From contig CAILUI010000097.1 in the NCBI GenBank assembly GCA_903837355.1, positions 1 through 64,000 on the forward strand: a stretch of DNA of 64,000 nt, read 5' to 3'. The DNA comes from an uncultured Victivallales bacterium. GTDB lineage: Bacteria > Verrucomicrobiota > Lentisphaeria > Oligosphaerales > JAFGRS01. The first letter of the stretch is position 1, and every line of letters begins with the position of its first letter. Of this stretch, positions 5,291 through 63,199 are shown in pieces. A program made the translations under genes and the position numbers. The notes beneath the pieces are model-generated. The model searched no databases. It saw only the letters and a program-made list of their open reading frames with translations, and was not told the DNA's origin.

Positions 5291-6964
5291 ATGCAGCGAC
5301 TGCTGAGGGTGTTGTTCTGCACGGGGGCGATGACGATGGCGCAGGGAGCGACGGAGATGGCGCTGCGGCCGGGCCAGGCCGCCGTGGACCTCGGCAAGGT
5401 GCCGCGACTGTGGGACGCGGTGGCCGATGCGGACCGGGTGCAGCCACTGCTGACGCTGGATGCCGAGGCCGCTTGCCGGTGGGTGCTGGCGCCGGGTGAA
5501 ACGATGCGGGTGCACCTCCAGGCGCCGGCGGCGGTCGGGGGCACGCGCGCGGTGCTGACCGTCTGGGACTGGCAGCGTAGCCCGGTAAGCCAGGCCGGGT
5601 GGGCGTTGCCCGTGGACGAGTGGGTGGCGCTGACCGTGACCGGGCGCGGCGTCTACCTGCTAACCCTGGACCTCTTCGACGGCGATACCTGCCTGGCACG
5701 ACTGCCGCGCAGTTTCGCGGTGCTGCCATCCAACGAGGACAAGCGGGAGACGTGGCGGCAGGGCGAGTTCTGGGTGGGGGTCTGCTGCTTCCCAGGCCGA
5801 CAGCACTGGCGCAACGACTTCGGTCCGGGGCATCCCCCCCAGCTCACGGAAGAACAGACCCGGGAGATGGATGCCGAGCTCTCGCGGCGGCTGGGGGTCA
5901 CGGTGGCGCGGCCGGACATCGCGGCCGTGTGGCCGGCAGCCGACCAGCCCATCGACTTCGCGCGCGCCGATGCCGCCATCGCGGCCTGGACGTCGCGCGG
6001 CTTCGCGTTGGATCTGCAGTTGTGGAACCCGGGCGCGGACTGGTCCGTCCTGCCGAAGTATGCCGCGGTGACCGATCCCAAGTGGCGCTATCCGGCCCGC
6101 GAAGAGGCCCTGCGGGCCTTCGTCGGTGCCTGTCTGGACCGTTGGGGCAGCTACGCCAAGCTGGTTGAGCTGGGCAACGAGACCGATAACCCGGACTTCT
6201 GGCGTGGCACCCCGGAAGAGTACCTGCGCTGGTGCGAGGTGGTGACCGAGGAGGTGCGCCGCCGCTTGCCGGATATCCCGATCGCCAACGGTGGCTACAC
6301 CTTCATGCTGCCCGAGTGGTCCGGTCAGTACATCCGCGCCCTGCGCGAGGCCACCCAGATCCAGGCCTACCATGCCCACGGTGGCGTGGACCTGACGAAG
6401 CAGCTGCTGACGACACTACGGACCGGACTGGCAGCCGCCGCCGTGGCGCGACCGCGGGTGGTGAACACGGAGATGGGCTTCTGCGCCTGGCGCCTGGACA
6501 TGGAGCGACACATGGCCGCAACCGCCGTGCAGAAGCTGCTGTACTGCTGGGCCCATGGCAACGAGGGGGCGCTGCTCTATTGTAGCCGCGAGTACACCGG
6601 CCCGCGCCTGACGGCCAACGACTGGGGCTACCTCGACTACTTCCTGTGCCCGCGCTTCATGTACGGCGCGGTGGGGGCGTTCATCGACCACCTGGCGGGG
6701 GCGCGGTTCGAGCGCATCGCCGCGGAGACCGATGGCCTCCACGCCTATGTTTTCGCGACGCCTGATGCCCGCGTGCTGGCTCTCTTCGCCCCCAATGACC
6801 AGGAACGCGAGGTCACCGTGGAGAGCGACGGTAAGGCCGCCCTGAGCGTCGACCCGATGGGCAATGAGACCCCGGCCGAGAACCCGGCTCTGGTGCGGGT
6901 CAAGGCGGGGCTTTACCCGACCCTGGTGCGCTGCGCGGGCGCCACGACGATCAGCGTAAAGTAG
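5291..6964 (+). CDS. Secreted glycoside hydrolase-like protein (GH39/clan A type)
   Basis: 557 residues with a short signal-like N-terminus (RLLRVLFCTGAMTMAQG). Residues about 25-150 are a beta-rich module. About 155-450 is a TIM-barrel-like domain with VELGNETDNPDFW (candidate acid/base Glu-297 following Gly-Asn) and RVVNTEMGFCAW (candidate nucleophile Glu-394). YHAHGG lies between them. The C-terminal 100 residues are a beta domain with HAYVFATPDARVLALFAPND, as in proteins with a Glyco_hydro_39-like tail. A good RBS (AAGGGGA) precedes ATG 5291. It lies downstream of and parallel to the other GH-A gene, and is followed by repeat array A. Confidence 0.7.
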   Translation: MQRLLRVLFCTGAMTMAQGATEMALRPGQAAVDLGKVPRLWDAVADADRVQPLLTLDAEAACRWVLAPGETMRVHLQAPAAVGGTRAVLTVWDWQRSPVSQAGWALPVDEWVALTVTGRGVYLLTLDLFDGDTCLARLPRSFAVLPSNEDKRETWRQGEFWVGVCCFPGRQHWRNDFGPGHPPQLTEEQTREMDAELSRRLGVTVARPDIAAVWPAADQPIDFARADAAIAAWTSRGFALDLQLWNPGADWSVLPKYAAVTDPKWRYPAREEALRAFVGACLDRWGSYAKLVELGNETDNPDFWRGTPEEYLRWCEVVTEEVRRRLPDIPIANGGYTFMLPEWSGQYIRALREATQIQAYHAHGGVDLTKQLLTTLRTGLAAAAVARPRVVNTEMGFCAWRLDMERHMAATAVQKLLYCWAHGNEGALLYCSREYTGPRLTANDWGYLDYFLCPRFMYGAVGAFIDHLAGARFERIAAETDGLHAYVFATPDARVLALFAPNDQEREVTVESDGKAALSVDPMGNETPAENPALVRVKAGLYPTLVRCAGATTISVK

Positions 6965-6965
6965 G

Positions 6966-7280
6966 CGGTGGCGGCGCACCGCATCCCCGGCAGTCCCTTG
7001 GAGGGGCGTCCGGCTCGGGCGCGGCGGCTCAGCGGGGCATGCGCCCCTGGGGAGCTTCGCCCTCCAGTCCCTTGGAGAGGCGCCCGGCTCGGGCGCGGCG
7101 GTGGCGGCCCACCGCATCCCCAGCGGTCCTTTGGAGAGGCGCCCGGCTCGGGCGCGGCGGTGGCGGCCCACCGCATCTCCAGCGGTCTTCTGGAGAGGCG
7201 CCCGGCTCGGGCGCGGCGGTGGCGGCCCACCGCCTCTCCAGGTGTTCTATGCATGGAGAGGCGCCCGGCCGCGGGCGTTC
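6966..7280. repeat. GC-rich direct-repeat array A (59-bp period)
   Basis: Near-identical units beginning GGAGAGGCGCCCGGCTCGGG occur at 7074, 7133 and 7192 (59-bp spacing) and again in altered form at 7255. Degenerate copies fill 6966-7070. Positions 7050-7068 contain GGGGAGCTTCGCCCTCCAG, the reverse complement of the core of arrays B and C. The array fills the gap between two convergent genes, and I see no gene in it. Confidence 0.9.
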
Positions 7281-7285
7281 CTTGC

Positions 7286-8641
7286 TCAGTTGCTGTGAGC
7301 CGCGCGCAGGGCCTGCAGCGCGCACGTTTCGAGCGCCTGCGCCATGCCCTTGGCGGCACCGCCGCCGACGACGGGCAGGGGTTCGTAGCCGCCGTGTTCG
7401 AAGCACTCGTCCATGGCGATGTACCCGGCAGCGCCGTTGGCGAGCGAGGCCAGGAGCGTGCGCGGGAATGGCGACCGCAGGCGGATGCTCTGGCCGATCT
7501 CGGTGAAGGGCTCGCCGGGCAGCGCCGCGATGGCGGTGTCCGCGCCCAGGCGCAGGGCCATGACCGGGAAGTCCACGGTCGTTCCGGCCTCGTTCTGGGC
7601 GAAGGACAGCAGTTGCTCCGCGAAGAAGCGCAGGACCGCCGGGGCGCCACGCGCCAGGTCTTCGCTGGTGAACACGCCCTTCGCGGCCTTCTCCTTGGCG
7701 AGCAGCGCTTTGGCGCGCCGCAGGTCGGCATCGGGGATCGCGCGTTTCTGCAACGTGAAGGTCTGCCGGCAGCACGCCAGCGGCGCCGGCGGGACCAATT
7801 CGGCCTCGTCCAGAGCGCGCAGGATGATGCCCGCATAGCCCTCGCCGATGCGGCGCGCCTCATCGTAGCAGGTCTGGCCCTGGGCGCTGGTCACGTCGAA
7901 GTGGTTGATGTTGCCGGAGGGGGCCACCAGCGTCAGCACCGGAAGCTGGGAACCGAGCGCCGCCTGCAGCGCACGCTCCAGGAACCCTGGCCAGTCGGCG
8001 CTGACGCGGTCCTCGCCGATGGTGTCGGTGTGGTTGGCGAGGTTGACGATCATCCCGGCCGGGTAGCCGTCGGCCAGCATGAGCAGGGCATGGACCTGGC
8101 GGTCCACCGGGCCCTCCGGCCGCACGATGGCGGGGTTCAGTTTGCCGGGGTTGGTGACGACCCGCTCGTCATTCATCCAGTAACGGCGGTTGTAGGCCAG
8201 TGGGTTGTTGACGACGCTCAGAGCGCGCAACTCCACCGGCACGAAACGCCAGAGCGCCGTGCGCACCGCCGCCTCGGCCTGGTCGGCGATGAAGGCGAGG
8301 GCATGCTCGTGGACCGCATCGCGCGCCGCCCGCATCTCGGGGCCGGTGTGCGTATGCGTCGCGGTGATGAGCAGGTGGTCGCCCAGCCCAGCGCTGAGCG
8401 CGTTGAAGCGGGTGCGCAGAAGCTGGTACAGCGGCAGGGGCACCTCGATCACGTCGAGTTGCACGATACCCGCCGTGATGGCGCCCTGCCGGAACAGGCA
8501 GACGCGCACCAACAGGTCGTCCAGGACACCCCGGTTGAAGCGCGGACTGAAGTAGCCCGCCAGGGCAACGCCCGGCGGCGGCGTGATGATGGCCCGCGCC
8601 AGGGCCACCGTGAGTTCTGCGGACGATTTCGAGCGGCCCAT
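7286..8641 (-). CDS. Neutral/alkaline ceramidase-like hydrolase
   Basis: 451 residues resembling the N-terminal domain of neutral/alkaline non-lysosomal ceramidases (PF04734): an early ITPPPGVALAGYF motif (about residues 18-30), a metal-site-like TATHTHTGPEM (about 92-102), LANHTDTIG and a late LPGEPFTEIG block. No signal peptide is evident. These truncated homologues are common in PVC and Planctomycetes genomes next to carbohydrate genes; their substrate is unproven and need not be ceramide. Start: a strong AAGGAGGTCCT precedes ATG 8641. It lies 25 bp downstream of the heparinase-like gene, so the two form an operon. Confidence 0.75.
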   Translation of the reverse strand: MGRSKSSAELTVALARAIITPPPGVALAGYFSPRFNRGVLDDLLVRVCLFRQGAITAGIVQLDVIEVPLPLYQLLRTRFNALSAGLGDHLLITATHTHTGPEMRAARDAVHEHALAFIADQAEAAVRTALWRFVPVELRALSVVNNPLAYNRRYWMNDERVVTNPGKLNPAIVRPEGPVDRQVHALLMLADGYPAGMIVNLANHTDTIGEDRVSADWPGFLERALQAALGSQLPVLTLVAPSGNINHFDVTSAQGQTCYDEARRIGEGYAGIILRALDEAELVPPAPLACCRQTFTLQKRAIPDADLRRAKALLAKEKAAKGVFTSEDLARGAPAVLRFFAEQLLSFAQNEAGTTVDFPVMALRLGADTAIAALPGEPFTEIGQSIRLRSPFPRTLLASLANGAAGYIAMDECFEHGGYEPLPVVGGGAAKGMAQALETCALQALRAAHSN

Positions 8642-25382: not shown

Positions 25383-26189
25383 ACGCTGACCGCCCATCCA
25401 CTCGTCGCCGGCAGAGTCCTGCGCCCAAGGCCAGCCTGGAGGCCCGCGCGGGCAACACTGTAAGCCTTGGGCCGGGCGGGTCAACCGGGGGCGGGTCCTG
25501 CGGCCGTGATCCCGCTTGGCGGGCGAAGCGACCCGGGTCCTGCGGACGGCGGGCTGCTGTCCCGCTGACTCGCATCTCGCTGGAGGGCGAAGCTCCCCAG
25601 GCGCGCCAGCGCCGCTGAGCCGCATCCCCGTGGCGGGCGAAGCTCCCCGGGCGCGCAGGCGCCGCTGAGCCGCCGGCCGGAAACCGGGACAAGGGCACGG
25701 CTCACCGCCTGCAAGGCAGGCCGTGGAGGTTCGCCCTCCAAGGGAACCCCGTGACCAAGCTGCCTTGTGCAGCAACCGTGGAGGTTCGCCCTCCAAGGGA
25801 TACCCGTGACCAAGCTGCCTTGTGCAGCAACCGTGGAGGTTCGCCCTCCAAGGGATGGCCGTGAGACGGCGCCGGGCGCAGTCCCCCGTGGAGGTTCGTC
25901 CAGCCGGTCCGCCGGGCCGGTGGAACGCGGGATCTCCGTATCCCGCGGCCGGGTTGCGGAGATCCCGGCGTCCAGGGGCGGGCCAGACAGATCGACACGC
26001 GAGCCGCGGCTCCTGCAGATCGTCATGGGTCATTCAGCGGTTCACCTACGAGGTCGCCCGCGCGGGCGGGCGCCGCGAGGCCGACCGGGAGTTCGGCGTT
26101 CCCAGGAGCGCCAGGCCCCGCGCGCGGCCTGCAGGCGTCGGCACTATGTTGTCAGCCAGATGTGGTTGCATTCGCGAGGAGCCATCGCC
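25383..26189. repeat. Repeat array B and flanks (50-65 bp and 55-bp units)
   Basis: No gene is visible in this 807-bp divergent gap. Units with core GGCGGGCGAAGC or GGAGGGCGAAGCTCCCC occur near 25516, 25581 and 25631. From 25721 a second motif, CCGTGGAGGTTCGCCCTCCA, repeats at 25721, 25776 and 25831 (55-bp period, with GTGACCAAGCTGCCTTGTGC in the spacer at 25751 and 25806), plus a degenerate copy near 25885. Both the GGCTCACCGCCTGCAAG junction (about 25699) and the motif order match array C. Confidence 0.9.
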
Positions 26190-29100: not shown

Positions 29101-29681
29101 CTCGCGACGGCCAGCCGCTCCGGGCCGCCCTGGTCGGCGGCACGCGCCTGACCCGCAACGGGGTCGGCATCACCCAGGCCAGTGCCGGCGGTCGCGCCCG
29201 TATTGTCGCGGTGGACCGCGTGGCCGGGACGGTGACTGTCGAACAGCCCGTCAGTGTGGCCCGTGCCTGGGTGGGACGGGTGGTCCATGTGGTTAACCCG
29301 GTGCGCCGGGTCAGCCTGCAGGTGCTCGCGGTCAGTGGCGACGAGCAGACGGCGACGTTGCAGGTGGAGTATGATCCCTGCATCGGTGTCGGGCGCAGCC
29401 GCGGCGCGGCGGATGAGCGTGTGCTGACCGACACGACCTTCTACCTGCGCGGTTGCCGCTACTATCACGGTGCGCGCTTGGTGGCTGCCGACGGCACCAC
29501 GGAGTACCCCGTCAAGGGCGTCCACAGCGGCGCCTTCGTGCTGGTTGGCGCCGAGGGCACCCCGCCGGTTCCAGGTGCCGAGCTGGAGCGGGCCTTCCCG
29601 GCCGGGAGCTGGTTCTCGATCTACGACTACGGCGTTGGCGACGGGCTGGAGTGGACGAACTCCGTCAGCCGTGAGTTCTAA
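26190..29681 (+). CDS. Very large secreted heparinase II/III-like lyase
   Basis: 1163 residues with a signal peptide (GYVLAAVAGWFTCLVAGGAEM). Residues about 25-200 are a beta domain. About 230-620 is an alpha/alpha toroid with FRDGAPYESSGGYNGMHV (about 469-486; the Tyr is a plausible catalytic residue) and FDFSMNTVTIDRTYPRVGDDG. From about 640 comes the beta-sandwich domain opening YGRYRSHCHDDIMHIGLDAFQSEIL, where a conserved His of the family sits. Most family members have 600-750 residues, so 400 extra C-terminal beta-rich residues are unusual. GAGGAG precedes ATG 26190. The stop overlaps the convergent giant gene's stop by 4 bp. Confidence 0.82.
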   Translation: MADAAKGYVLAAVAGWFTCLVAGGAEMVVYRPDVVGVERLFMVALKVPRETPDIEVTVPPCVVLLDRTRLPAQSELRKFYFRSTAPAVQAEIRFAGPIEAQTVVIDIWSFAQLRAPRTLKGVDLPRRWPLGEALPELKAGQTLTDARSQEAARQAGAPATAYLELGDDAIWALQPDSTLPRWHWTNVKEGCPVHGAAIYEKGAYYPWLNDRGLALRSYTATVPYPWKIVCPVGKESYPSNDIGKDDFTSGEFPDDGMGGGFERGGIHYGFLAEIAQAYCHQMLKVAPDCARSYLVTGDARYVHKALVALSRLAVEYAYLATMTQHRHRNSQSQVERLGQAPFSEGPFLYDTGLTVYAIDQPGYQMALAEAYDRIWPAIDQDAEILPYLRGKGFALADHEQLRRFLEENLLAVWMQAALDGSTASNPPYAQWGLARMAEMLNYRRGTDFMDWLFDGAGNMRAFVANGFFRDGAPYESSGGYNGMHVTALGPIVESVEHLRALRPDVYPEARYPNLTRSRRYHNVFDFSMNTVTIDRTYPRVGDDGVPPHYGKRARITAQNGGTEAFEHAVKVFGDPKFAWALARWPDWQPAPGSALTRAQVEAAAAAWPDDWNDRSRLSDGYGLAILRSGSGEAKRALWMMYGRYRSHCHDDIMHIGLDAFQSEILGHLGYPRNWNSWYGNWMTQLVARQVPFVSMTATAQLFADAGPLQVAEALASAFTDRVAEGVGYAVDSGNGQRRCLALIDVDAERFYAVDLYSVFGGREAWWSFHGQEDDGFQVAGLNLTPQTGGTLAGADVPYGDEAWLKANGCTRSNYGYSGPMFGFAHLDHVQRASSADAWSADWTLRAAEGLHFRLSVPPGDAAQEVAVCDGRSPAGASPYAMKWLLRHDQGSAPLRSRFVSFMELYRGAPLIVALRRVELTGAGQDAAEAQAYEVILEHRRDLIFYSTAADRVFAAAGGFEFAGRFGLYSETRDGQPLRAALVGGTRLTRNGVGITQASAGGRARIVAVDRVAGTVTVEQPVSVARAWVGRVVHVVNPVRRVSLQVLAVSGDEQTATLQVEYDPCIGVGRSRGAADERVLTDTTFYLRGCRYYHGARLVAADGTTEYPVKGVHSGAFVLVGAEGTPPVPGAELERAFPAGSWFSIYDYGVGDGLEWTNSVSREF

Positions 29682-32600
29682 GGCCAGAGCAGCGACTGCC
29701 CGTAGGCGGTTGCCGAGAGGCTCTCCAGCCGGGCCCAGCCGTCGGCCAGAGGGGTGATCGTGGTCCGCATGCGGAGTGCGCGGGCGGTGGGGTCGGTCGG
29801 GGCACCGCTCAGGGTGAGGATCACGCCCTGGCCGGTCGTCCGGCCGTGGGTGACGAGGGTGTGCTCAACGCCATTTGCGAGCGTCAGCAGGGCCGTACCG
29901 TCGACGGCTCTCCCGGCCTGAGTGAGCTGGAAGCGCAGGTTCCAGGTGCCGTCCATGGGTGCCGGCAGGGCGAGCGTCACCCGCTCCTGTAGTGCGACCG
30001 TGTCCAGGCCGCGGCTGAGGCTGCCGCTCAGGGGGCCGACGAGGCGCAGCCCGACAGGGTCCAGCGTCAGGGTCAGGGCCATGCCGACGGCGACGGTACG
30101 GTTGGCCGCGCTGCCGGCCAGCGTCAGCCTGGCCAGGAGGCCATCGGCCGTGCCCGTCACAGTCCCGCGGACGGGCAGGCTGACCAGTGTCTCGGGCGAC
30201 ACCGGGTAGGTCGCGGCTCCCGTGAGCTTGCCGTCAGCACTATGTATTATATTCATAGATAATAGGTTATGATCTACAATCAGGGTGTATGAACCGGTCA
30301 GATCCCAGAGGCCTCGGCCAGCGCTTGCCGCGGCTGCATCGACGCCGCCGCGGAACTCGCCGGTGGGCGCCACCGGCGCTGGCGGCGCGAAGGCTGTCTT
30401 TGGGAGGTCAACCAGGATTTCGCCGCCGGCCTGGCGGAAGCCAACCTGGCCGCCGAGGCTCTGTTCGTCTTTGGCCAAGGCGACGCGGGCCAGGCGGTAG
30501 GTCAGGGTGACCGGCCAGGTGGCGGGCAGGGCGATCCAGGCGAACGCGAGCGTGCCGGCGGCCCCGGGCTGCGGGCTGAGGGCGGGCGCCTGGGAACCGC
30601 CCAACTCCACGAACTGCCAGCCCGGGGGCACACTCTCCTGTACGAGCAGGCTGGTCAAGGCTCCGGGCTGGCTGTGCTGCAGGGTCAGCGACACCTCGAC
30701 GAGGCGGTCGCTGGCACCGGGGTAGGCGAGGGTTCGGGAGGCGGTCAAGGTGCCGGGTTTATCGGCGCCTTTGGCGCCGCCGAGGTCAGGGGCGTAGCCG
30801 TCCTCGGTATCGTCGGCGCAATGGTAGCCGCCGCTGTTGTAGAACTGGATCAGGCGGGTCAGTTCGGGCGAGAGCTGGATCTGCCAGTCGCCGTTCTGGT
30901 CGGCCTGGTGCGGCGTGCAGGTGCGGTTGCCCGTACCGGGGGCGTAGCCGTCCTCGGTGCCGGCCTGGCAGCGATAGCCACTCAGGTTGTAGAACTGAAT
31001 GAGCCGGGTGAGTTCGGGGCTCAGGTCGATGACCCAGTCGCCGTCCTGATCGGCCTGATGGGGGACGCAGCAGCCGCCGACCTCCACACAGGTCTCGCCA
31101 CGGACGGTTGCGGTCAGTTCCGGGCCGTCGGTGCGGTAGGCGCTGGTGCCGGTCACGCAGTGCAGGCCCGCGCTGGCCAGTGCCGGGACCGCCACGTGGT
31201 AGGTCAGTGTCAAGGGGAAGTCCGGGATCACGATCCACGAGAACTCGAGCGTCCCGGTGTCCCCCAGGGCAGGCTGGAGATCGGGCGCCTGGTCGCTCTC
31301 GACACTCAGGAACTGCCAGGCGGCCGGCAAGACCTCGGTCAGCGCCAGGCTGGTCACGCCGCTCGTGGTGCTGAGATCGATGGTGACGGTGACCGCCAGT
31401 GGGCTCCCCGCCGTGGCACAGCCCGCGGGGAACTCCCGCACCGCGATGTCGGCGCTGACCGTGAGGCTGAAGCTACCACTTGCCGACATGCCGTTGCTGC
31501 CGGTGACCTGCACGGTGAAGGCCGCGGTGATCGTCTCGTCCGGGGTGCCGCCGATGGCCCCGTCGCCACCGAGGCTCAGGCCGTGAGGGAGGCTGCCGGT
31601 AATGATCTCCCAGGTGTAGGGCTCGCTGCCGCCGCCCGCGGCCAGGAGCAGGTCGTAGGGGGTGCCGACCTGGCCCGGCGGCAGGGGGCTCGGGGTGGTG
31701 ATGGTCGGCGCCGTGTCGACCGCCAGGCGGTAGTTGTCAAAGGTCATGAAGTTGTCGCCGGGGTTCCCCACTGTGCCCACCTGCCAGCCGGCGGCCACTT
31801 CGCCCAAGCTCAGGGCCGAGGTGCCGGCGTGCAGGATCCGGTCAGTGAACAGAACGCTGCCATCGAGGCTGGCCGACCAGCGGTTGCTGGCGAAGTCCAT
31901 CTTGGCGTCGAGGTGCAGCGGCGTATTGCTGGTGAAGCTGCCCACCTCGGTGAGGCCGCCCCCACTGCCGACCCAGACGGAGAAGTCCCAGGTATCGAAG
32001 AGGATCTGAGCCAGGTAGTCGCCGTTGGCGTTGAACAGGAAGAAGCCGAAGAGGTCGTAGGCCGGCAGGCTGGAGTCGTAAATCGCCAGATCAACGCTGA
32101 ACGTGACCACCGGCGTATCCGCCACCAGGGGGTTGTAGTTCACCGGACGGTACACGTAGACGCCCTCCGCCGCCGTGTAGTTGAAGCCGACCCAGGCCTC
32201 CTGGCTGCCCGCGGCATAGACTCCGTAGGTGCCCAGCGTCGGGTCGTCCGTACCCAACCAGCCGTCAAAGCCATCCAGGGCGCCGAGGCCGGTCGGGAAA
32301 GCCTCGAAGTCGGTGCTGTAAAGCACGCTCGACGGGTTCTGGCCAAGGCCAAGCTCGATGCTGCCCTCAGCACCGCCGTAGCCATCGACGGCGATCTGGT
32401 AGACGGCGCCGGTGGCGGCGAAGAACAGCACCTGACTGCTGAGGTCGAGGGCGGCGTCATCGTTGGCCACTACCGGGATCAGGCTGGCCAGGCTGCTGCC
32501 TTGGTAGACCGCCAGCACGGTGTCGAAGCTGCTGCCGGCCGTGGAGAGGGTCACCATGCCGTTCGCCGGCGCCGTCCAGGTCCACCAGACGGACTTGGCC

Positions 32601-35600
32601 GGGCTGTAGGTGCTGTGGTCGGGCTCCCCGGCCTCGGCCGTGGCGCTGACGTTGCCGCCGCTGTCGGCGCTGTGGCTGCCGGTGAGGGCGATACGGTTGG
32701 CGAAGTGGTCATTGCTGGAGCCGGTGCTGAGGGCGCCCAGCAGGGCGATGCTGCCGCTGGCGCCAGCGTAGCCATCGACGGCGATCTGGTAGGTTGCGCC
32801 GGCGCTGGCGTAGAAGGTCAGGCTGCTGGTGGTGCCAGCGCCACCGTCGTCATCCGCGGCCACCTGCACCAGCCCGGCCAAGGCCGTGCCGGTGTAGACT
32901 GCCAGCAGGGTGTCAAAGGCGCTGCCCTCGGTGTTGAAGCGTGCGACGCCGGTGCCGGGGGCCGTCCACGTCCACCAGACCGAGCGCCGGGCGGCGTAGC
33001 CGGCGTGCGCGGGCTCGTTGGCCTCGGCGGTGGCGTTGAGGTTACTGCCGGCCGCGGTCACGGTGGCTCCGGTGACGGTGATGCGGTTGGCGAAGTGATC
33101 GTTGGCGGCGGCCGCGCCCTGCAGTTCCAGGTGGAGCTGCACGCCGCCGGTTTGGCCGTGCCAGCCGTCGACGGCGATCTGGTAGGTGACGCCCGCTGTC
33201 GCCGGGAAGCTGGCGAGGCTGGTGTTGCCGCCGCCGCTCTGGTCGTCGGCGGCCACCGCCGTGAGCGCGGTGAGTGCGCTCCCCGTGTAGACGGCGAGCA
33301 GGGTATCGAAGTCACTCCCGATGGTGTCGACGGTGACCCGGCCGGCAGCGGGCGCCGTCCAGGTCCACCAGACCGAACAGGTGGCCGGGTCACCGGCGTG
33401 GGCGGGTTCCCCGACTTCCGCCGTGGCCGAGAGGTTGGCGCCACTGCCCACCGCCAGCGCGCCGCTGAGGGCGATGCGGTTGGCGAAGGCGTCATTGGCG
33501 GGGCCGGCGCCGGCGCTCTGCCGCAGTGCCAGGGCAATCTGGCCCTCGGCGCTGTCGCGGCCGTCGACGGCGATCTGGTAGATGGTCCCGGCGACGGCGC
33601 TGAAGCTGACCTGGCTGGTGGTGCCGCCGCCGCTGTCATCATCGCTGGCGGTCAGGCTCAGGCCATCGACCGTGGTGCCGGTATAGACGGCCAGCAGCGT
33701 ATCGACGTCGCTGCCGATCGTATCGAGGGTCGCCAGGCCGCTGGTGGGCGCGGTCCAGGTCCACCACACCGAACGGCTGGCGGGCATGCCGGCGCCGTGG
33801 TCGGGCTCGCCGGTTTCAGCACTGGCGCTGACGTTGGTGCCGGTGGTGTTGGCGGCGCTGCCGCTCAGCGGGATGCGATTGGCGAAGGCATCGTTGGGGG
33901 GGCCGTAGATACTGCTTCCGGTCACCGTCAACTGCAGGACCTGGTAGCCCGTCCCCGCGGCGTTGCTGGCACTGAGCGTGATCGGATAGCTGCCCGTGGC
34001 CGGCAAGGTACCCGTGATGTAGCCCGTGACGTCGTCGAGGGTCAGGCTGCTGGGCAGTCCCAAGGCGGCGAAGCTGGCCGGGCTGTTGCTGGCCTCGATG
34101 CGGTAGATGAAAGCGCTGCTGCGGACGCCGGTGGCGGTGGTACTGCTGGTGATCACCGGCGCCAGGCCGGAGGCCGAGTCGATGGTGATCGTCAGCGCGC
34201 CGGTGCCGGCACCGCCGGCGTTCGCCGCGCTGAGGGCGGCGGTGTAGCTGCCGGCCAGGGTCGGGGTGCCGCTGATCGCCCCGCTGCTGGGGTTCAGTGC
34301 CAGGCCCGGCGGCAGGCCGCTGGCGCCGAAACTGGTCGGCGAATTGCTGGCCGTGACCGTGAAGCTGAAGGACCGGCCCACCGTGCCGGCGGCGGTGCTG
34401 GCGCTGGTCAGGCGCGGGGTCGCGATCAGCGGGGTGGTGATCGTGAGCGTCAGTGTCCCGGTACCGACGCCGCCGGCATTGGCGGCGCTGATGCCAACGA
34501 TGTAGCTGGGGCCGGCCACGGTGGGGGTGCCGGTGATGGCGCCACTGGTCGGGTTCACCACCAGCCCGGGCGGCAGGCTGTTTGCCCCAAAGCTGGTCGG
34601 GCTGTTGCTGGCGGTGATGGTGTAGCTGAAGGTCTGGCCCACGGTCGCGGTCGCCGTGCCGGCGCTGCTGATGACGGGTGCGCCGGTCGTCGCGAAGTCC
34701 GCGTAGGCCCGAACCGTCGAGTTGTCGGCGGTCCCCGGCAGGCCGGCGGTGGCCGTGGCCAGCACCGTTCCCCCGGCGGTCATCAGGCGGAAATCGCTGA
34801 GCGTCGCCGCCGTCCCCGGGCGGTTGTCCTGCACCGCCACGTAGTAGCGCCGCGGGCCAGCCTGGGCCAGATCGGTGAGGTCCAGCACAAAAGTCCCGCC
34901 CACGGCCGCGCTGGTGCCGGCGAAGCCATAGGCGCCGCCGAGGCTATCCAGCGCCTGCGGCCAGGTGTCCGAGTCATTGGCCCAGCCGAATACCGTGGTG
35001 CTGGGGAAGGTGCTTTGCGGGGTGGTGGTGCTGGTGGCAGAGGCCCCGACCTTCAGCCCCAGTTGGTTGCGTATCGCGGTGCTGACGGTGAACTGTCCCA
35101 GCAGCGTGGGTGTGTAGCTGGCGCGCGCTGTGATCCAGTAGATCTCTGAGTTCCAGAAAGCACGTTGGCGGTCGGCGCTGCTGACGCCGCCGACCGCAGA
35201 GCTCGCCTTCAACGCATCGTAGGCAATCCAGCCGTAGCCATCCGTACCCGCCTCCCACCAACTGCTGGTGCCCCACGAGTTGACGACCTTGAGGGCCCCC
35301 TTCTCGCCGGCGTCGACCGTCCCGTTCTTATTGAGGTCCATCCAGAGGTCGTCGTTGTAGCCGACCAGGGTCATGGCGTGGCCGCTGTTGGCCAGGGCCG
35401 AGACTTTCCAGCAGCCCGGGCGCCCGGCCAAGCTGTTGTCCGCGGTCGTGGCGGGATCGTCCGAGATCGGCATGAACTGCCAGGAGGACACGTGGGTGGC
35501 GTAGAGCAGCGCATAGCCATTCGCCAGCAGGGCCTTAGCGTTGGCCAGGCCGGCCGCGGTGTCGACCGCCTGTACCCGCCCGATCTGCTGGAAGCGGTTC

Positions 35601-36361
35601 GCGGCCGCGCTGCGCCAGACCGCGGCATCGCGACTCCATTCCAGGTAGTTGCTGGCCGTCGTACCCACGCCCACGTAAGGGAACTCGGACCAGGCCGGGC
35701 ACCCCAGTTTCAGCAGCACATCCATGATCGTGCTGAACCAGGCCCCTGCATCCGCCCCGTCATTGGCGAAGTTGTAGGTCCACTTGGGGGAGAGCTTGCG
35801 CCCGTTGTCGTCGTCGTCTTTGTTGTTCCAGCCGCGGGCCAGGCCCAGCATATGCGTGCCGGCGTAGTAGGTCGTGGAAAACGCGGCGCAGGAACCGAGC
35901 GAGCCCTGGCTGCGTACCGGCGGGAAGGACGGTAAGGTGCTGTTGTCCACGGCTGCGGGCAGGGTGGCCGCTACCGGGACACCCTTCGCGTCGGCGGTGC
36001 CGGGGATATCCATGCCGCCGGGGAGGGCGGCCGGGTTGGTCGACTGGGATTCCGCCCCCACGGGCACCGCCTCCGCCTTGAGCTCAGCCAGGCCCTTGGT
36101 CCGACGCTGGCGGTTGATGCGCTCCAGGCCGAGGGCATTGGGCAGGACCCGCTGCGTGCTGGCCAGGTTCAGATCCATCCAGGCCCGGTCCTCGACCGTC
36201 GGCGGCCGCAGGCCGGTCGCCCGCACCGCGTCGGCCGCCTGGGCTGACGCCAGGCCGGTCATACCGACCAGCAGCAGGGCGAGGGCTCCGGACGCGGACC
36301 GCAGCCAGCACCCGTAGGCGCCGGCGATGTGGCTGGTCTGAAACAGTATCATTTTGCGCAT
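29678..36361 (-). CDS. Giant secreted papain-like (C1) peptidase with Ig-like, PPC-like and dockerin-like modules
   Basis: 2227 residues. Signal peptide (ALALLLVGMTGLASAQA). Residues about 130-400 are a C1A peptidase: QGSLGSCAAFS (Cys-158), SGHAMTLVGYN (His-328), VVNSWGTSSWW (Asn-361). About 558-817: three putative-Ig (He_PIG) repeats with SNSPTSF and LPPGL...SGAITGTP. About 820-1345: four 131-residue PPC-like repeats (NDAFANRI...SVWWTWTAP...YQIAVDG). About 1345-1545: a concanavalin-like domain. About 1555-1760: another Ig-like and a DUF11-like domain. About 1765-1861: two dockerin-like repeats. Then further beta domains. It is probably exported and surface-attached. A GGAG lies upstream of ATG 36361. 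Confidence 0.85.
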   Translation of the reverse strand: MRKMILFQTSHIAGAYGCWLRSASGALALLLVGMTGLASAQAADAVRATGLRPPTVEDRAWMDLNLASTQRVLPNALGLERINRQRRTKGLAELKAEAVPVGAESQSTNPAALPGGMDIPGTADAKGVPVAATLPAAVDNSTLPSFPPVRSQGSLGSCAAFSTTYYAGTHMLGLARGWNNKDDDDNGRKLSPKWTYNFANDGADAGAWFSTIMDVLLKLGCPAWSEFPYVGVGTTASNYLEWSRDAAVWRSAAANRFQQIGRVQAVDTAAGLANAKALLANGYALLYATHVSSWQFMPISDDPATTADNSLAGRPGCWKVSALANSGHAMTLVGYNDDLWMDLNKNGTVDAGEKGALKVVNSWGTSSWWEAGTDGYGWIAYDALKASSAVGGVSSADRQRAFWNSEIYWITARASYTPTLLGQFTVSTAIRNQLGLKVGASATSTTTPQSTFPSTTVFGWANDSDTWPQALDSLGGAYGFAGTSAAVGGTFVLDLTDLAQAGPRRYYVAVQDNRPGTAATLSDFRLMTAGGTVLATATAGLPGTADNSTVRAYADFATTGAPVISSAGTATATVGQTFSYTITASNSPTSFGANSLPPGLVVNPTSGAITGTPTVAGPSYIVGISAANAGGVGTGTLTLTITTPLIATPRLTSASTAAGTVGRSFSFTVTASNSPTSFGASGLPPGLALNPSSGAISGTPTLAGSYTAALSAANAGGAGTGALTITIDSASGLAPVITSSTTATGVRSSAFIYRIEASNSPASFAALGLPSSLTLDDVTGYITGTLPATGSYPITLSASNAAGTGYQVLQLTVTGSSIYGPPNDAFANRIPLSGSAANTTGTNVSASAETGEPDHGAGMPASRSVWWTWTAPTSGLATLDTIGSDVDTLLAVYTGTTVDGLSLTASDDDSGGGTTSQVSFSAVAGTIYQIAVDGRDSAEGQIALALRQSAGAGPANDAFANRIALSGALAVGSGANLSATAEVGEPAHAGDPATCSVWWTWTAPAAGRVTVDTIGSDFDTLLAVYTGSALTALTAVAADDQSGGGNTSLASFPATAGVTYQIAVDGWHGQTGGVQLHLELQGAAAANDHFANRITVTGATVTAAGSNLNATAEANEPAHAGYAARRSVWWTWTAPGTGVARFNTEGSAFDTLLAVYTGTALAGLVQVAADDDGGAGTTSSLTFYASAGATYQIAVDGYAGASGSIALLGALSTGSSNDHFANRIALTGSHSADSGGNVSATAEAGEPDHSTYSPAKSVWWTWTAPANGMVTLSTAGSSFDTVLAVYQGSSLASLIPVVANDDAALDLSSQVLFFAATGAVYQIAVDGYGGAEGSIELGLGQNPSSVLYSTDFEAFPTGLGALDGFDGWLGTDDPTLGTYGVYAAGSQEAWVGFNYTAAEGVYVYRPVNYNPLVADTPVVTFSVDLAIYDSSLPAYDLFGFFLFNANGDYLAQILFDTWDFSVWVGSGGGLTEVGSFTSNTPLHLDAKMDFASNRWSASLDGSVLFTDRILHAGTSALSLGEVAAGWQVGTVGNPGDNFMTFDNYRLAVDTAPTITTPSPLPPGQVGTPYDLLLAAGGGSEPYTWEIITGSLPHGLSLGGDGAIGGTPDETITAAFTVQVTGSNGMSASGSFSLTVSADIAVREFPAGCATAGSPLAVTVTIDLSTTSGVTSLALTEVLPAAWQFLSVESDQAPDLQPALGDTGTLEFSWIVIPDFPLTLTYHVAVPALASAGLHCVTGTSAYRTDGPELTATVRGETCVEVGGCCVPHQADQDGDWVIDLSPELTRLIQFYNLSGYRCQAGTEDGYAPGTGNRTCTPHQADQNGDWQIQLSPELTRLIQFYNSGGYHCADDTEDGYAPDLGGAKGADKPGTLTASRTLAYPGASDRLVEVSLTLQHSQPGALTSLLVQESVPPGWQFVELGGSQAPALSPQPGAAGTLAFAWIALPATWPVTLTYRLARVALAKDEQSLGGQVGFRQAGGEILVDLPKTAFAPPAPVAPTGEFRGGVDAAAASAGRGLWDLTGSYTLIVDHNLLSMNIIHSADGKLTGAATYPVSPETLVSLPVRGTVTGTADGLLARLTLAGSAANRTVAVGMALTLTLDPVGLRLVGPLSGSLSRGLDTVALQERVTLALPAPMDGTWNLRFQLTQAGRAVDGTALLTLANGVEHTLVTHGRTTGQGVILTLSGAPTDPTARALRMRTTITPLADGWARLESLSATAYGQSLLWP

Positions 36362-44277: not shown

Positions 44278-44958
44278 GATCCACGCTCCTACCTAGTGCG
44301 GTCGCTCGTCGCCGTTGCCGTCGCGCCGGTCGGCACACCCGCCAGGCGCACCGCCAATGTGCCTCTCCCCGCCGCGCTTTCCAGCCGGCGCCGCCGCCTT
44401 TCGTAACCCCCAGTGAAGTCTGCCGGGGGCCGCTGGAGGGCGAAGCTCCCCAGGCGCGAACGCGCCGCTGAGCCGTGGCCCCCCGGGACGCCGCCGCTGG
44501 AGGGCGAAGCTCCCCAGGCGCGCCGGCGCCGCTGAGCCGTGGCCGCCCGGGATGCCGCCGCTGGAGGGCGAAGCTCCCCAGGCGCGCCGGCGCCGCTGAG
44601 CCGTGGCCCCCCGGGACGCCGCCGCTGGAGGGCGAAGCTCCCCAGGCGCGAACGCGCCGCTGAGCCGTGGCCGCGCCTCGCGGCCAGCCGGGAAGGACCG
44701 GCTCACCGCCTGCAAGCAGGTCCTGCTGGACAGCAGGATTCGCCCTCCAGCCCAGCCCCCGGCTGGCGCCGGACGTGCCGAGACGCGCACCGCGATTCCC
44801 ACAGCCCGTCAAGACCCATGGGTCGTTCGGCGGTTACACCTACAAGCCTGCCCGGAGAGCCGGCTGCCAGAACTTCACTGGCACTGCCGCTTTCCGGCCG
44901 GCGGCCGGCAGGCTTGCGGAAGGCGGCGCGGGGGGCGTGGCACGCACTCGAGCGGAGT
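44278..44958. repeat. Repeat array C (four 64-bp units) and flank
   Basis: No gene. Units starting CTGGAGGGCGAAGCTCCCCA lie at 44433, 44497, 44561 and 44625, exactly 64 bp apart; each continues AGGCGCG-variable-CGCCGCTGAGCCGTGGCC. The variable part is itself a short palindrome (GCGCGAACGCGC or GCGCGCCGGCGC). The array ends at a GGCTCACCGCCTGCAAGCAGG junction (about 44700), the same as in array B. The remaining 250 bp has no repeats that I recognise. Confidence 0.93.
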
Positions 44959-62804: not shown

Positions 62805-62881
62805 GGGCCCGTAGCTCAGTTGGTTAGAGCAGACGACTCATAATCGTCGGGTCGCTGGTTCGAGCCCAGCCGGGCCCACCA
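62805..62881 (+). tRNA. ileX: tRNA with CAU anticodon, probably tRNA-Ile2
   Basis: 77 nt with complete cloverleaf and encoded CCA. Acceptor GGGCCCG pairs with CGGGCCC; D arm GCTCAGTTGGTTAGAGC; anticodon stem GACGA/TCGTC with loop CTCATAA; variable GGGTC; T arm GCTGG-TTCGAGC-CCAGC. C4-G69 and C5-G68, recognised by TilS in tRNA-Ile2, are present, and the loop and T-arm region resembles E. coli ileX. Elongator tRNA-Met remains possible. Confidence 0.9.
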
Positions 62882-62988: not shown

Positions 62989-63138
62989 CGTCACTTTGGC
63001 GTCACTTTGCCTCTGAGGCTAAACGGGTGACGGGGGCAGTAGGCGGGCGGGGGCAGGGGGGGCAATTCCGCAAGGTTGCGGATTTGACCTTGCGCCAGAT
63101 GGCGTAAGGTGGCGGGCGTCACTTTGGCGTCACTTTGG
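62989..63138. repeat. Two tandem pairs of CGTCACTTTGG
   Basis: CGTCACTTTGG occurs head to tail at 62989-62999 and 63000-63010 (last base C) and again at 63117-63127 and 63128-63138. Short direct repeats near a tRNA resemble the arm-type sites of tyrosine integrases. No integrase gene is in view. Confidence 0.7.
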
Positions 63139-63199
63139 CCCCCGGCCAGGGGGGCGCTACGTCTGACCCTACGTCCGCGGGTGGCCCCTTTTGCGCATT

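Follow-up and report, generated by a model that had tools for sequence, protein, structure and literature searches.

The window, meaning here the whole 64-kb stretch of DNA that was analysed, contains the repeat arrays A, B and C. Array A occupies nearly all of the 321-bp intergenic space (6965-7285) between two convergent genes. The preliminary description had placed units of 59 bp between two convergent stops, which agrees with what we found: Tandem Repeats Finder gave a period of 59 with 3.0 copies and 95% match at 7067-7241, and TGGAG unit starts lie at 6999, 7073, 7132 and 7191, along with a truncated unit starting at 7254. The features of the gap and its neighbours are listed below.

5336..6964, plus strand: left gene, ending at 6964 (gene caller; Pfam, 0 matches at E 0.001)
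6965..7285, no strand: intergenic gap with convergent neighbours (predicted gene ends and repeat finding)
6999..7067, no strand: chimeric dimer of an A-type half (TGGAGGGGCGTCCGGCTCGGGCGC) and a C-type unit (sequence, folding)
7026..7067, minus strand: C-type unit TGGAG-GGC-GA-AGC..hairpin..GCT-GA-GCC, holding the core at 7051-7065
7073..7122, plus strand: A-type element 1 (A-type copy set)
7132..7181, plus strand: A-type element 2 (A-type copy set, folding)
7191..7240, plus strand: A-type element 3 (A-type copy set)
7254..7277, plus strand: truncated A-type half (sequence)
7286..8608, minus strand: right gene, its stop at the low end 7286 (gene caller; Pfam, 0 matches at E 0.001)

As had been stated beforehand, the sequence at 7051-7065 (GGAGCTTCGCCCTCC) matches the reverse complement of the array C core without a single difference. 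Within the window this core gave 10 matches with at most 2 mismatches against 0.46 expected, and a 26-mer was found at 4 places with at most 3 mismatches against 0 expected. The earlier view of array A as an inverted relative of array C held for one part and failed for the other: the minus-strand unit at 7026-7067 is a true C-type unit, while the 59-bp units belong to a separate two-hairpin family (A-type) with the TGGAG end in common. Apart from that minus-strand unit, the 59-bp unit matches the array C unit over 9 bases at best (E 0.020), with little shared beyond that end, so array A in its entirety does not represent array C in inverted form. The junction between an A-type half and an inverted C-type unit seen here also occurs at another host locus (C85:31249-31314, L001). 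Array A is made up of two hairpin families spread through the intergenic gaps of the host, and the C-type recurs in distant relatives.

Structure of the two unit families

The C-type unit is about 42 nt long, reads TGGAG-GGC-GA-AGC-bulge-hairpin-GCT-GA-GCC and was seen in arrays B and C and in one unit of array A. Its general form is TGGAG followed by GGC-GA-NNN-loop-N'N'N'-GA-GCC, a GC-rich imperfect hairpin. In the window it is found outside array A as follows.

25562..25673, plus strand: first part of array B, two C-type units, period 50
25699..25864, minus strand: second part of array B, period 55, with three C-type cores, all inverted and of the GAACC subtype
25699-25741, minus strand: full C-type unit within the second part of array B, ending GGTGAGCC
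44429..44672, plus strand: array C, four C-type units, period 64

Among 46 distinct host copies, 99.4% of the cells of the C-type stem were paired compared to 84.0% after shuffling, and pairing dropped to 25-55% when the stem was slid. Cells with double-sided changes numbered 50 against 10.8 in shuffled data (0/500 shuffles as high), a count inflated by related copies. The number of pairs with a double-sided change (5/11 against 4.6 shuffled, 314/500 shuffles as high) and the number of pair types (20/500 as high) are weak measures. After GCGAA, the next position is G-C in 38 copies, C-G in 7 and T-A in 1. DNA folding returned the proposed structure for two C-type units with z about 0, and the unit at 25699 favoured a rival GGAG/CTCC pairing; this simple hairpin, the best DNA fold of that unit though it is, showed no covariation and was rejected as the C-type structure.

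The A-type has the form TGGAGA-hairpin-hairpin-TCTCCA and spans 48-52 nt. In array A, positions 7130-7181 fold into an outer stem with two hairpins at -22.8 kcal/mol (z -4.74). Over 19 copies we counted 13 double-sided changes against 4.3 shuffled (0/500 as high), coming from 3/20 pairs; by number of pairs 22/500 shuffles were as high, and by pair types 500/500. An A-type 26-mer with at most 3 mismatches was found at 15 host places against 0 in controls, and the fetched host DNA held 12 A-type clusters, one of them within a called gene. A-type units were not found in 0.57 Mb of non-host loci, which had been picked for C-type motifs.

Some variant forms were also observed. Units at L182 (~16843), L226 (~590), L185 (~6379) and L179 (~131) continue as GCGCTAACTT where other units have the common tail GCTGAGCC, which suggests a second partner element. 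At the starts of two contigs (C153:12-144, which is L216, and C174:20-224) there are arrays with a 36-bp period of the minimal unit TGGAGGGCGAAGCGCCGGCTGAGCC. In our own reading the reverse strand of this unit gives GSAGASPS; a literature search on GSAGASP found no paper.

Copy number and placement in the host

The host assembly comprises 9.6 Mb in 466 contigs. C-type cores with at most 1 mismatch occur 367 times in it compared to 4 times for reversed controls, and in 1.69 Mb there were 79 profile matches of at least 15 bits, with 0 in the reversed sequence. A systematic sample, made up of the initial 20 kb of each sixth contig between C3 and C465 (77 regions; C99 was left out as already sampled), contained 16 clusters in 0.854 Mb, corresponding to about 180 per genome. 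The initial expectation of hundreds per genome is borne out by both counts, and the possibility that no further copies exist in the genome, named at the outset as fatal to the idea, is contradicted by hundreds of them.

Placement was studied in 161 host regions of 2.03 Mb, holding 88 clusters; 84 of these regions, the window included, had been selected because of an element, a Y1 gene or a match to the A-type pattern. Some elements stand alone and others form inverted dimers or arrays; 19 of the 88 clusters are of mixed orientation. It should be noted that gene edges are approximate, as the genes were predicted with a home-made Markov caller. We found 33 clusters in tandem gaps, 15 in convergent gaps, 15 in divergent gaps and 1 in a gene, along with 24 at region edges that were set aside, among which one C149 cluster split by a region border is counted twice. 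At 22 of the 24 edges the cluster sits at a true contig end, so the elements may explain assembly breaks; some of these stretches had been chosen for carrying a core.

The clusters are thus extragenic, 1 of the 64 with the edges set aside lying within a called gene. Chance or low-complexity repetition of GC-rich DNA, or repetition within coding sequence, would fit the high G+C content (67%) and the period of 36, a multiple of three, in some arrays, but not the near-zero reversed controls, the covarying stems and the scarcity of clusters in genes, nor the window periods of 50, 55, 59 and 64, which are not multiples of three. This explanation is already refuted for the C-type, and we give it practically no weight.

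Counting strand relative to neighbouring genes and testing enrichment at gene ends had both been proposed beforehand, and the clusters do lean towards gene ends. Convergent gaps held 15 clusters where 8.5 were expected by length, and divergent gaps 15 where 18.0 were expected; a specificity for convergent genes was rejected, the preference being only mild. In tandem gaps, 24 of 33 clusters were closer to the upstream stop, and among the clusters of one orientation 18 of 22 were opposed to the direction of the genes (p 0.004; the 11 mixed clusters were left out). This pattern, along with the mostly downstream position of REPs relative to genes in the cited parts of PMC3733652, is what one would see if the hairpins were RNA elements at gene 3' ends, kept for transcription termination or mRNA protection, their mobility being incidental. 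Such a role does not account for the clusters in divergent gaps, where no gene ends, and it needs neither tandem arrays, target duplications nor genome-specific stems. Further, Rfam at gathering score found nothing but a tRNA across the window. We consider the RNA role unlikely.

Recurrence and dimer geometry in relatives

In a draw of 148 genomes of the class, a 16-mer was found in 3: the host (234 copies), G047 (251) and G098 (8). G047 belongs to JAFGRS01 and G098 probably to JAGLDW01, both being labelled Lentisphaeria. Draws over the phylum, which we take to be Verrucomicrobiota in GTDB, comprised 288 genomes, of which 6 matched the covariance model and 6 a 25-mer, the host in both. As so few of them match, the C-type family is patchy; the covariance-model counts are floors, since 21 candidates per genome were scored under strict filters.

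Seven relatives within the phylum, chosen for matching the covariance model or the 25-mer, contained the pattern GGAGGGCGA-N(8-12)-GAGCC 37, 30, 138, 18, 43, 4 and 1 times, with reversed controls of 0-2 each. The outer motif is constant in these genomes, and the middle stem varies and covaries (AGC/GCT, ACC/GGT, ATC/GAT, ACG/CGT, GTG/CAC, GCG/CGC and others). The foot is GGGAG in G319 and G172 and TGGAG otherwise. A loose triplet test found complementarity in 56/92 sister-genus cases against 27.5 shuffled and in 16/24 SLKG01 cases against 5.8, compared to 0/63 in loci of unrelated genomes. The 145 matches listed for four genomes give 355 paired positions out of 435, where the within-genome shuffle had a mean of 259 and a maximum of 280; with 8 G-T against 5 A-C cells, either strand may be the one that folds. 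The third stem pair fails in 50 of the 145 listed matches, mostly in G330 and G229, hence some subtypes have a shorter stem.

Dimer spacing was measured in G330, G229, G286 and G284, picked for having matches. Head-to-head spacing was 57-60 in 9/10 pairs of G330, 59 in 5/6 of G229, 42-46 in 8/9 of G286 (among the matches listed, 35 of 138) and 43-46 in 7/8 of G284, which in addition showed tail-to-tail spacing of 41 in 4/4, some of these pairs coming from two alternating arrays. Close pairs of other kinds were fewer: G330 had three in tail-to-tail arrangement, at 105-107, and one on the same strand, and the 35 listed matches of G286 included one tail-to-tail and two same-strand pairs. This dimer geometry is BIME/REPIN-like. 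G286, of the same phylum, carries 138 generic-unit matches in 5.2 Mb, and by eye its dimers often join two different stem types, among the matches listed.

Transposon ends, candidate mobilisers and known repeat systems

Several host copies are bounded by inverted ends similar to GTAATGCCTCAGTGAAGTCTGC with direct duplications of 8-9 bp outside, such as GGTCGCCCG in L173, GCCTGGGTG in L320, GGGCTGCC in L304 and CTCAGTTC in L314. These miniature transposons are about 100-190 bp long with one or two REP-like units inside. At least one GTAA-type end scoring at least 17/22 was present in 16 of 64 clusters against 0/505 in the null, which is not independent as the end consensus was derived from such copies. 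Both ends were present in 7 clusters, 5 of which have a duplication of at least 7/8 and the other two 6/8 and 5/8, with a mispaired-end null of 0.0012; this measure does not depend on the end consensus. Inverted ends along with a target duplication, as in a MITE, were thus found in 5 of 64 host clusters. Array A is among the 48 of 64 clusters with no end at 17/22 when scored against the end consensus. At array C, where 681 bp were scanned, one partial end was detected and nothing comparable on the right side.

44402..44423, plus strand: partial GTAA-type inverted end, 16/22, left of array C

This score equals the best in 300 random stretches of 440 bp, where 2 attained it.

It is possible that the units are only passengers. 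What moves would then be the GTAA-ended miniature transposon (about 100-190 bp), mobilised by a DDE transposase that would be IS66-like judging by end and duplication length, and all other units would be decayed or locally amplified remnants. IS66 insertion sequences start with GTAA and produce target duplications of 8 bp. Both ends with duplications of 7/8 to 9/9 in L167, L173, L304, L314, L320 and the sister-genus copy L083 (8/8) are in accordance with such a scheme. The nearly fixed spacing of the relatives' dimers is not, nor are the 48 host clusters with no recognisable end and the Kiritimatiellae SLKG01 copies, none of which had a GTAA-type end by eye among those inspected. The IS66 domain PF03050, present in 14 of 47 genomes of the order, had 0 matches in the host and was found in 0/4 genomes of the family, the host and the other 3, and IS66 was rejected as the source of the ends, with the reservation for the host that its assembly may lack collapsed insertion sequences. 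We regard the passenger scheme as possible but rather improbable.

IS256 was likewise rejected, with no domain match in the host. The fetched host DNA gave 865 loosely matching pairs of ends separated by 700-4500 bp; those with at least 6 matching duplication bases were inspected, and among the pairs listed no full-length insertion sequence with GTAA-type ends was convincing by eye. Genes sandwiched between clusters were rejected as mobilisers; 8 of 22 listed were tested by Pfam, of which 6 were ordinary and 2 had no match. No pair of an insertion and its empty site was seen.

REPs are common repeats across bacteria, and how they spread is clearest in cases with an adjoining gene for a Y1 transposase. 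For the REP-linked Y1 subclasses, the cited section of PMC6006769 reports REPs no more than 1 kb away from the large majority of the genes. Classical REPs moved by a flanking RAYT would have the architecture found here (foot, imperfect palindrome, inverted dimers, extragenic placement), and the host does have 13 matches to Y1 transposase domains. But no unit was found at any of these 13 loci within flanks of up to 1.5 kb, several of them cut by contig ends; all that turned up were lone core-like hits in 2 loci, at 3 mismatches, and lone tail-like hits. Nor was any of 30 Y1 matches in G229, G330, G284 and G172 within 1 kb of a listed unit, by an exact pattern that would miss diverged units and with G286 and G319 left out. 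With 0/13 and 0/30 near a unit, and a foot of TGGAG rather than GTAG or GTGG, the RAYT link was rejected, and we find this explanation quite unlikely. Just past the window, L155:2125-2469 (C97:66125-66469) carries a Y1-transposase domain with a different, GGCAGAAGGGCGAAGCCCTGGCAG-like repeat upstream, not of the TGGAG family.

The units resemble REP/BIME/REPIN elements (GTAG; also GTAG-20 of O. terrae, Verrucomicrobia) in being short imperfect palindromes with a one-foot motif and complementary stem changes, in many, mostly intergenic copies and in inverted dimers, as far as the cited parts of PMC3733652 and PMC3116915 go. They differ in the foot, [TG]GGAG here and GTAG/GTGG there, in a lower stem, GGCGA/GAGCC, that hardly varies and sets GA opposite GA, and in that no flanking RAYT was found and some host copies lie within an inverted-repeat transposon with target duplications. 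The CGTC-tagged REPs, which include Neisseria dRS3, are families apparently without a dedicated transposase and mostly in inverted (HH) dimers, a likeness to the present case; by the same excerpts of PMC3733652 they have a terminal CGTC and stems almost always starting with A-T pairs, whereas we find a TGGAG foot and G-C rich stems. Class 3 TnpA-Y1 hairpins of Planctomycetes, Acidobacteria and Proteobacteria are likewise atypical and can become numerous, with about 600 in Solibacter usitatus, but they flank the Y1 gene and have the foot CnGA in the portion of PMC6006769 that treats them, neither of which was seen here. MITEs, which the relevant part of PMC3116915 defines as being about 100-400 bp long and having terminal inverted repeats, share the length of about 100-190 bp, the inverted ends and the 8-9 bp target duplications; here there are REP-like units inside, a parent insertion sequence was not found, and the packaging concerns a minority of clusters. 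A search for extragenic palindromic repeats of Lentisphaerae found no paper, and the titles and abstract openings of related literature among the matches listed named no such repeat.

The elements are structured, repeated, extragenic, dimeric and partly carried by transposons. The imperfect palindrome with compensatory changes, the high-copy extragenic placement and, in relatives, the inverted dimers of fixed spacing are those of REPs. A GTAG/GTGG or CGTC terminal motif was tested for and the foot was TGGAG, hence we do not assign them to the GTAG or CGTC superfamily; the REPtron arrangement, REPs flanking a RAYT/Y1 gene, was not found either. We consider it probable that array A arose where short, mobile hairpin elements working like REP/BIME/REPIN expanded locally in tandem. 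In such a system a transposase acting in trans would move the transposon-packaged copies, a hairpin in single-stranded DNA may be the signal for a second, putative nuclease, and tandem arrays would form later by slippage or recombination. Copies would persist near gene ends because insertion there presumably does little harm. More tentatively, we suggest that the elements may represent a third REP superfamily, marked by the TGGAG foot and the GGC-GA/GA-GCC stem, occurring in Lentisphaeria and Kiritimatiellae as well as further lineages of their phylum, spread by a mobiliser other than a neighbouring RAYT and hitchhiking on DDE-type MITEs in the host lineage. If true, such a superfamily in another phylum would, after the CGTC REPs, be the second large group of REPs for which no enzyme is known, and the elements are ready substrates for finding the mobilising enzyme.

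The window holds some other repeats. A 261-bp repeat at 34181-34667 (1.9 copies, 75% match) lies inside the long minus-strand gene 29678-36361 and perhaps represents repeated domains. Downstream of the tRNA-Met at 62805-62881 lie two short arrays, at 62989-63009 and 63115-63139, whose 11-bp repeats have the consensus CGTCACTTTGG and GGCGTCACTTT.
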